Shown piece after piece: positions 56,203 through 58,016 of a stretch of DNA of 64,000 bases. Below the pieces are notes generated by a model. The model was not told the DNA's origin. It was given only the letters and a program-made list of their open reading frames with translations, and did no database searches. The DNA is from Vibrio cholerae (GTDB lineage: Bacteria; Actinomycetota; Actinomycetes; Actinomycetales; Micrococcaceae). The stretch's first letter is position 1, and every line of letters starts with the position of its first letter. The stretch lies in NCBI GenBank assembly GCA_009728235.1, contig WNZI01000005.1, positions 1-64,000 on the forward strand, written 5' to 3'. A program made the position numbers and the translations under genes.

Positions 56203-57501
56203 TCACCGCAGGGGTGCGCGCGGATCCGTGTCCGGGCCCCAGGAACCACCGACCGCCACCAGGACCCCGGCGAGCACCAGCAGGGTCGCGATGGGGCCGT
56301 ACGTGCCGAAGGCTTCCTGCAGTGGCGGCAGGTAGTAGGGGTAGAGCGCGGGCACGACGATCGACAGGCTGTAGCCCAACCCGTACCCGCTCGAGCGGAC
56401 CCCGCCGGCGAAGCGTTCGGAGAGGTACGCCCCGATCGGCCCGTAGACCGAGACCGTCACCACCTGCAGTGCGGCGCAGAGCGCGATGACGGCCACGGGA
56501 GCCTGCACGGCGAAGATCCCCAGGAAGCAGACGGGGCCGAGGACGGCGGCCAGCATGCCGAAGCCGATGAAGAAGCGTCGCCGTCCCACGAGGGTGGACA
56601 GGTGGCCGCAGAGGGCCATGGCGACGGCGGAGACGGCGGTGGCGCAGAGCAGGGCGAGGGTGACCCCGCGACCGTCGAAGGTCCCCGCCCTCGTGAGTTC
56701 CGCCGTGAGGGTGGGAATCGCCATGTAGGTCAGGAGCCAGAGGCCCGTCATGAGGACGAAGGTCTGCAGGAGCACGCGGCGTTCGGCCCCGACGAGGACT
56801 TCCCGCAGGGGCGAGCGGGGCGCTGCCGCCCGGACCGCAGCCGGGGCGTCCGTCACCTGGCGCCGGTAGTACCCGAGCATCACGAGGGCCAGGATCCCCC
56901 CGATGAGGAACGGGATGCGCCAACCCCAGGCGGCGTAGGACGCGGGATCGAGGACCGTCAGCAGGAGGAGCACGAGGGCCGCGATGCTCGCATTGGCCAC
57001 GGGAGACATCGCCATGATCAGTCCGCTCGCCAGCCCCCGCCGCCGGGGCGCCGACCATTCCATGGCCAGCGGCACGGCGGAGGTGTACTCGCCGCCCAGG
57101 AAGACGCCACCGATGAAGCGCAGGGCGAGGATCAGGGCGACGGTCCCACCACCGAGCACCTCGTGGCCCGGGACGGCGGCGATCAGCAGCGTGGTCCCGG
57201 CGATGCCCGCCAGGGCCACCTGCGTGGTGACGGTGCGCCCCACGCGGTCGGCGACAGGGCCGAAGATCGCCGCTCCCAGCGGACGGCCGATGAGCGTGGC
57301 GGTGAAGACCAGCCCGGCCGTCGCGACGACGTTCTCGGCACCGAGCAGGGTGCTCGCCGCCGGCGCGAGCGCGATCACCGGCAGGAAGATGTCGAACTGG
57401 TCCACGAAGTTGCCGAAGATGCCGCCGCGGACGGCATGGCGGGCCTGCCGGCGATCTGGGGACGGCAGGTCGGTGGACGATGACACGGAGGAACGGGGCA
57501 C
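56203..57501 (-). CDS. MFS transporter of MHS type, probable thiamine-related uptake
   Basis: 432 residues with 12 membrane helices. The metabolite:H+ symporter subfamily shows in GAAIFGPVADRVGRTVTTQVA, FIGGVFLGGEYTSAVPLAMEW, PRRRGLASGLIMAMSPVANA and GWRIPFLIGGILALVMLGYYRRQV. The GTG start 57501 lies immediately downstream of a TPP riboswitch, so expression should fall when thiamine pyrophosphate is plentiful. By that control the cargo is most likely thiamine, a pyrimidine or thiazole precursor, or another thiamine-linked compound. The sequence alone would only say MHS symporter. Confidence 0.85.
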   Translation of the reverse strand: MPRSSVSSSTDLPSPDRRQARHAVRGGIFGNFVDQFDIFLPVIALAPAASTLLGAENVVATAGLVFTATLIGRPLGAAIFGPVADRVGRTVTTQVALAGIAGTTLLIAAVPGHEVLGGGTVALILALRFIGGVFLGGEYTSAVPLAMEWSAPRRRGLASGLIMAMSPVANASIAALVLLLLTVLDPASYAAWGWRIPFLIGGILALVMLGYYRRQVTDAPAAVRAAAPRSPLREVLVGAERRVLLQTFVLMTGLWLLTYMAIPTLTAELTRAGTFDGRGVTLALLCATAVSAVAMALCGHLSTLVGRRRFFIGFGMLAAVLGPVCFLGIFAVQAPVAVIALCAALQVVTVSVYGPIGAYLSERFAGGVRSSGYGLGYSLSIVVPALYPYYLPPLQEAFGTYGPIATLLVLAGVLVAVGGSWGPDTDPRAPLR

Positions 57502-57507
57502 GACATT

Positions 57508-57598
57508 CTCGCTTCCTTCGCCGGCATGATCCGGAGCAGGTTCGGCGGTCGAAGCTGCAGCAGCTTCCTCTCAGCCCTTGCCGGGGCTCCCGCGGGAA
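57508..57598 (-). promoter_or_regulatory. TPP riboswitch (THI element)
   Basis: On the minus strand the conserved core reads GGGAGCCC, GGGCTGAGAGG, CGACCGCCGAACCTG, CTCCGGATCATGCCGGCG and AAGGAAGC, matching the TPP aptamer: CTGAGA of the pyrimidine-sensing arm, and GAACCTG with GGATCATGCCGGCG of the pyrophosphate-sensing arm, plus a variable stem (GAAGCTGC/GCAGCTTC). The GAAGGAAG Shine-Dalgarno-like sequence forms the 3' edge of the aptamer, 10-15 bases before the MFS GTG, so ligand binding may mask the ribosome site directly. Confidence 0.93.
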
Positions 57599-57631
57599 TT
57601 GGTGTCCTCATCCTGCCATGCTCCGGAACCC

Positions 57632-57676
57632 TTGACGCTCGGACACCCCGCGCGTAACGTACAACCATATGGTTGT
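57632..57676 (+). promoter_or_regulatory. ArsR promoter and palindromic operator over the start codon
   Basis: TTGACG (57632-57637) and TAACGT (57655-57660) are spaced by exactly 17 bases. The perfect palindrome ACAACCATATGGTTGT (57661-57676) follows at once and contains the ATG of the regulator gene at 57669. Transcription should begin within about two bases of the ATG, so the mRNA is probably leaderless, and repressor binding would cover the start site. Confidence 0.7.
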
Positions 57677-58016
57677 ATATGAGCTGAGCGAGGACGAGGT
57701 GGACAGGCTCTTCCAGGCGCTCGCCGACGCGACCAGGAGGGATATCGTGGCACGCGTCCTGATCTCCGAGTACTCGGTATCGGGGTTGGCCGAGCAGTAC
57801 GACATGAGTTTCGCCGCCGTGCAGAAACATGTGGCCGTGCTCGAGCGGGCCCGACTCGTCACGAAGCACAGACGCGGACGGGAGCAGATGGTGCGCGGAC
57901 AGGTCGACGGTGTCCAGCGGGCCCGACGCCTGCTCGACGACTACGAGGGGATCTGGCGGCAACGGGTCGACCGGATGGAGGACATCCTCGCCGAGGGCGC
58001 GAAGGATGCGGACTAG
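57669..58016 (+). CDS. ArsR family regulator
   Basis: 115 residues with a winged HTH: LFQALADATRRDIVARVLISEYSVSGLAEQYDMSFAAVQKHVAVLERARLVTKHRRGREQMV, typical of ArsR proteins that pair with AHSA1 enzymes. There are no metal-site cysteines, so it is probably not a metal sensor. The ATG lies inside the palindrome that it probably binds. The AHSA1 gene starts 12 bases after its stop with an AGAGAGG site. Confidence 0.9.
   Translation: MVVYELSEDEVDRLFQALADATRRDIVARVLISEYSVSGLAEQYDMSFAAVQKHVAVLERARLVTKHRRGREQMVRGQVDGVQRARRLLDDYEGIWRQRVDRMEDILAEGAKDAD

Follow-up and report, generated by a model that had tools for sequence, protein, structure and literature searches.

We predict that a minus-strand transporter gene of the window (the whole 64,000-nt stretch of DNA that was analysed) encodes an importer of 5-(2-hydroxyethyl)-4-methylthiazole (HET), and assign this reading a probability of about 0.7. 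The carrier very likely has a thiamine-related role, and the evidence points to HET, the substrate of ThiM, as its cargo rather than thiamine or HMP. The window presents an Arthrobacter-like bacterium with a vitamin B1-sensing RNA switch ahead of a probable thiazole importer. The locus comprises the following features:

57496..57603, minus strand: TPP riboswitch aptamer (RF00059), full length (cmscan; pair count over 17 aptamers)
57512..57517, minus strand: Shine-Dalgarno sequence AGGAAG, within the 3' part of the aptamer (sequence; aptamer scan)
57499..57501, minus strand: GTG start codon, 10 nt 3' of the Shine-Dalgarno sequence (ORF list; aptamer scan)
56203..57501, minus strand: MFS transporter of 432 amino acids with 12 helices, nearest to the metabolite:H+ symporter (MHS) family, proposed HET importer (Pfam, NCBIfam, AlphaFold2, Foldseek)

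A cmscan search of the whole window gave one TPP match, at 57603-57496 on the minus strand, which covers model positions 1-105 of RF00059 (E 9e-9). The first-pass annotation of this DNA had suggested a covariance search as a check on its riboswitch call, and the element withstood it: its 58.0 bits exceed the curated Rfam gathering cut-off of 54.3, by a margin of just 3.7 bits, and we regard the match as sound. The same annotation had placed a TPP aptamer right before the GTG of a 12-helix MFS gene on the minus strand, with a Shine-Dalgarno-like sequence at the aptamer edge. This arrangement was confirmed by cmscan, the open reading frame and the AlphaFold2 model, and the sequence in question is the AGGAAG listed above. 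In the Rfam alignment, the last hairpin pairs three of the six AGGAAG bases and the closing stem (P1) a fourth; P1 contains a C-C mismatch. Folded by itself, the leader has a minimum energy no better than that of shuffled sequences (z 0.71). Therefore, the evidence for the RNA comes from the covariance model and from pair changes in relatives, not from folding energy. No terminator-like site was found between 56100 and 57760, and a promoter scan detected nothing. As a separate observation, a perfect palindrome of 18 bases, TACAACCATATGGTTGTA, lies at 57660-57677 on the riboswitch side of a divergent ArsR-like gene (57669-58016, plus strand; named by eye) and spans the start of this gene. It is possibly an operator, which could also affect the promoter of the carrier.

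We subsequently compared the aptamers located directly before carrier genes. The pair count included 17 of 22 such aptamers; four from genus g24, which were misaligned by MAFFT, and one identical copy were left out, and the rows were trimmed at the Rfam hits, which biases the count towards the model. Standard pairs occupied 89.1% of the pair cells, compared to at most 47.3% in slid controls. Changes on both sides of a pair occurred in 39 cells, a level reached in none of 500 shuffles, and the covariation score of 0.270 was likewise not attained in any of the 500. Such changes affected 11 of the 27 pairs, which 7 of the 500 shuffles matched. P1 is the weakest helix across the relatives, with 65.9% of its cells paired. 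AGGAAG or AGGGAG is found at the equivalent position in 16 of 21 scanned aptamers, and in 15 of the 21 a start codon follows this internal Shine-Dalgarno sequence by 4-10 nt (the script found none in six). Two Arthrobacter relatives have ATG instead of GTG at the equivalent position. Taken together, a Shine-Dalgarno sequence inside the aptamer, a start codon nearby and the lack of a terminator-like site in the region scanned fit translational control, towards which Actinomycetota riboswitches tend according to a passage in PMC12452182. The window element resembles translational-type TPP riboswitches in having a full aptamer, an internal Shine-Dalgarno sequence and no terminator-like site. We found no structural difference from them, and the governed gene is the sole unusual point.

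The encoded protein matches only two Pfam families, MFS_1 and Sugar_tr. Its MFS_1 score of 86.3 bits against a cut-off of 33.4 (E 2.5e-24) places it in the major facilitator superfamily. The best NCBIfam match is the metabolite/H+ symporter model TIGR00883, with 156.6 bits far under the curated cut-off of 443.45. Therefore, we file the protein as an MFS carrier nearest to the MHS family and not as a TIGR00883 member; its earlier designation as MHS holds for the nearest family only. An AlphaFold2 model (mean pLDDT 89.3) built from a 17-sequence alignment shows 12 long helical segments, and the 50 Foldseek matches listed include MFS structures, with E values from 2e-11 to 1e-8. A sequence search of the PDB with the window protein gave no match at E 0.001.

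The gene neighbourhoods of relatives tie the carrier to thiamine metabolism. We examined 16 named relatives (L005-L020; 48-88% identity) from a scan of one genome per species; the thi genes used as seeds were named by Pfam. Fourteen of the 16 have a TPP site ahead of the carrier gene or of the operon that contains it, nine sites scoring above the Rfam cut-off and five under it. The site stands directly before the carrier in L005, L006, L010, L012 and L015 (above the cut-off) and in L007, L011 and L020 (42.8-51.8 bits) and L009 (52.5 bits), all four under it. The order TPP site, thiC, carrier is found in L016, L017 and L018, and in L008 with a site under the cut-off (52.9 bits). In Cutibacterium avidum (L019), the TPP site is followed by thiD/tenA, the carrier, thiM and thiE. 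No TPP site was detected at E 0.1 for L013 and L014, where the carrier comes after thiM and thiE (in L014 also thiD) and the contigs stop just before those genes. Frequent neighbours are thiC or thiD/tenA upstream and thiM and thiE downstream. The earlier assignment of the carrier to uptake of thiamine or a precursor is thus borne out by the TPP sites and thi neighbours of the relatives. Two of these loci carry further riboswitches. In L009 (945-2155), another TPP riboswitch, located on the opposite strand, lies ahead of the gene of a lipoprotein that by eye resembles THI5/NMT1-type pyrimidine-binding proteins, and in Kocuria palustris (L011, 5311-5647) a SAM-IV and a SAM-I riboswitch lie back to back on opposite strands.

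A second collection, whose genomes may overlap with the named relatives, was a sample of 396 genomes from the order, in which the carrier was called at E 1e-60 in 32 genomes, including that of the window. The TPP and thiM tallies of this sample were entered from sites near the carrier or on its contig. For 29 of the 32 carriers, a TPP site was located no more than 3.5 kb upstream in the same orientation; 25 sites score above the cut-off, and the four that fall short of it are in G088 (37.1 bits), G321 (33.7), G329 (52.1) and G347 (47.3). In at least 14 of the 32, thiM follows the carrier in the same orientation at a distance of up to 2.5 kb. In 11 of these the distance is at most 126 nt, and in the remaining three it was taken from a match covering just the first half of the carrier. 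For the carriers of G006, G262 and G265, the DNA searched contained neither a TPP site nor any of the five seed thi genes. The carrier genes of G006 and G262 (L117, L118) were seen right behind two tRNA genes without a TPP site, and both genomes have thiG. Elsewhere in the sample, TPP riboswitches occur as outward-facing pairs, one on each strand and separated by about 90-120 nt (G323:C1:196476-196765; G304:C1:401114-401427).

Across the same sample, presence of the carrier follows the thiamine genes of the genomes. A thiM gene (E 1e-20) is present in 32 of 32 carrier genomes versus 142 of the 364 others (Fisher p 6e-13), so that 142 of the 174 thiM genomes have no carrier gene. At E 1e-40, thiG was detected in 99 and thiC in 63 of the 396 genomes. 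The carrier occurs in 12 of 14 genomes with thiC and no thiG versus 2 of 49 with both (p 3e-9), in 4 of 50 with thiG only and in 14 of 283 with neither. Because the 32 carrier genomes are related to each other, p values calculated over genomes come out too low. Counted per genus, a weaker but safer test, the carrier is found in five of six thiC+ thiG- genera versus two of 20 thiC+ thiG+ genera (p 0.0018). Two genomes, G050 and G363, have thiC and lack both thiG and the carrier. Full-length thiG (>300 bits) is present in six of the 32 carrier genomes (G006, G136, G262, G304, G323 and G367) and absent in 26. At the permissive level of E 0.001, thiG was matched in all 32, the best matches of 26 genomes amounting to just 23.6-33.7 bits over short stretches, above the Pfam cut-off of 23. 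We presumed these 26 matches to be other proteins, and for this reason the thiG and thiC counts use E 1e-40. Thi4 was detected at E 1e-15 in none of the 34 genomes searched; five of 14 control genomes were positive. A search for ThiW matched none of the 34 genomes, but since the control genomes also gave no match, this result is not evidence of absence.

The genome to which the window belongs is a draft assembly of 117 contigs (95.3% complete). A tblastn search at E 1e-3 with ThiC, ThiM, ThiD, ThiE and YkoE as seeds found none of these genes in the window, in agreement with the first-pass annotation, which had seen no thi biosynthesis genes there and had called the gene a lone transporter. The latter description is valid for the window locus only: the genome has three further TPP sites, before thiM-thiE, before ykoE and the adjoining genes of an ABC ATPase and a CbiQ-type protein, and before thiD/tenA, and in many relatives the carrier adjoins thiC, thiD/tenA, thiM or thiE. 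Neither thiC nor thiG was detected in this genome at E 1e-40, and Thi4 was absent at E 1e-15. Therefore, the bacterium would need external HMP and thiazole, or thiamine. On contig C14 of the assembly, thiE (L132, around 2541-2547) and thiD/tenA (L133, around 1931-1994) are each split over two frames, and thiE keeps a single frame in two Arthrobacter relatives. The split could reflect either an assembly error or decay, and because of it the bacterium's own use of HET is not certain.

Which compound the carrier transports can be narrowed down by the thiC+ thiG- genomes. A genome of this type that keeps ThiM makes HMP and no thiazole, and therefore must obtain HET or thiamine. The carrier is present in 12 of 14 genomes of this type, and since these should make their own HMP, HMP is unlikely as the needed cargo there. 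Import of HMP, or of a degraded pyrimidine as substrate of ThiD or TenA, would agree with thiD/tenA directly upstream of the carrier in several relatives and with the lack of thiC in the window genome at E 1e-40. But this genome already has a TPP-controlled ykoE transporter locus, and YkoEDC is entered as an HMP or thiamine carrier in Table 1 of PMC6593275; we consider a pyrimidine cargo very unlikely. Thiamine itself is an unlikely cargo, albeit a natural candidate, as TPP riboswitches commonly control thiamine carriers. Fourteen of the 32 carrier genomes lack both thiC and thiG, and in these the pattern cannot separate HET from HMP or thiamine. However, thiC is retained in another 14 of the 32, of which 12 lack thiG, and thiM is present throughout the 32; with thiamine as the main cargo thiC and thiM would idle, and thiM and thiE often adjoin the carrier. 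In addition, a full-length match to PF04263 (thiamine pyrophosphokinase) was found in none of 13 genomes searched. Three had no match and ten had a match of only 35-39 residues (31.9-36.5 bits, above the Pfam cut-off of 30.7); the one protein examined among the partial matches is SteA (497.4 bits). The idling of thiC and thiM and the PF04263 result make thiamine less likely than HET.

Two further explanations concern the direction of transport and the aptamer itself. MFS carriers can work in either direction, and a passage in PMC6593275 raises reverse transport as a hypothesis, so that the protein might export thiamine, a precursor or an antivitamin. Repression by TPP would, however, turn an exporter off just when thiamine is plentiful, and occurrence of the carrier follows the absence of thiG among thiC genomes; export is therefore highly improbable. 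If the aptamer were instead a chance match or a dead relic, the transporter could carry a carboxylate. The small margin of the Rfam score, the weak P1 and the unremarkable fold energy would suit such a view, as would two plasmid-borne homologues (~37-41% identity) located amid catabolic-looking genes. Against it stand the E value of the match and the repetition of the arrangement across several families with changes on both sides of pairs, which leave this explanation a probability close to negligible.

We favour the HET importer and read the locus as a probable thiamine-salvage unit. In this reading, the binding of TPP, the shut-off of translation, the direction of uptake, the coupling to protons and the cargo itself are inferred. 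ThiE joins the thiazole and pyrimidine halves. When TPP is scarce, the Shine-Dalgarno sequence in the leader would be free and the transporter would be made. When TPP is plentiful, the aptamer would fold around it, most of the Shine-Dalgarno sequence would be paired in the last hairpin and the closing stem, and translation would be off. The symporter would import HET, probably together with protons. Imported HET would then be phosphorylated by ThiM, described as HET kinase in PMC6593275, and ThiE would join HET phosphate with HMP-PP.

To place the carrier among its homologues, we calculated a tree of 57 proteins (L022 and L023 omitted, L084 and L021 trimmed at one end). A branch with 100/99 support separates the 46 carriers of the clade from all other proteins, and two plasmid-borne homologues join them next. 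The E. coli proteins YhjE, KgtP, ShiA and ProP lie beyond a long 100/100 branch; these are four long rows, the placement of which was flagged as unsure. The clade members observed come from Actinomycetota, except for one MAG labelled Proteobacteria (L013). The DNA searched around eight outside homologues (~37-41% identity, local blastp) contained no TPP riboswitch in any case, which makes the TPP link a mark of the clade. Within a sample of the phylum, six of 266 genomes matched at E 1e-40, the window genome among them. The other five, all of one family, have six homologues of 40-42% identity, without a TPP site within about 1.5 kb on either side. A plasmid search by tblastn returned 16 records, with identities of ~36-42% among the 15 matches listed, and the two plasmid homologues examined are located in catabolic-looking clusters and not in thi loci.

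An MHS-type HET carrier is not a new idea: a passage in PMC10588857, citing Rodionov 2002, gives ThiU of Haemophilus influenzae (HI_0418, TC 2.A.1.6.12) as an MHS-family protein in a thiamine gene cluster predicted, and predicted only, to transport HET, and names YhjE as its nearest relative. Both ThiU and the present clade are thus MFS proteins in or near the MHS family and occur in thiamine gene clusters, the latter in the relatives and not in the window. With YhjE as a proxy for ThiU, the identity between the window protein and YhjE is 28%, the same value as for KgtP (28%), and the clade and YhjE are on opposite sides of the long 100/100 branch, the placement of YhjE being unsure. Because the clade is neither nearer to this proxy nor on its branch, we do not file it as ThiU, although it may work like ThiU. 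PMC6593275 lists ThiW and ThiU as HET carriers and reports ThiW in just 64% of HET auxotrophs among gut genomes. ThiW (PF09512) shares the predicted cargo proposed for the window protein, but is of an unrelated family, and PF09512 is not among the Pfam matches of the window protein. KgtP, ShiA, ProP and YhjE are also MFS proteins, and the best NCBIfam models of the window protein come from their neighbourhood. They are only 26-28% identical to it and lie outside the clade, and KgtP, ShiA and ProP are annotated with other cargo.

We found no description of the actinobacterial clade in the open-access literature, to which this search was confined; an earlier annotation in RegPrecise, mcSEED, supplements or subscription papers is possible. 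We rate it somewhat better than an even chance that an MHS-like branch separate from ThiU was recruited to thiamine salvage in Actinomycetota and is the missing HET importer, which would fill the thiazole gap of species that produce HMP and no thiazole, and be switched by TPP aptamers that hide the translation start. Little is known about carriers of the thiazole half of vitamin B1. With its riboswitch mark and its link to the lack of thiazole synthesis, the clade is a concrete candidate for one large bacterial group and would help to predict the vitamin needs of its bacteria. A further suggestion from the data is that a vitamin precursor is the cargo of a carrier type frequently associated with carboxylates.

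A comparison of clade members with the eight near outsiders, in which L084 was again trimmed at one end, yielded residues that set the clade apart. N31 (helix 1), T258 (helix 7), T349 and Y353 (both helix 10) are among those that all 46 clade members share and all eight outsiders lack. Q346, also in helix 10, is present in 45 of the 46 and again in none of the eight. Judged by this distribution, the five positions are candidate residues of an altered binding site.
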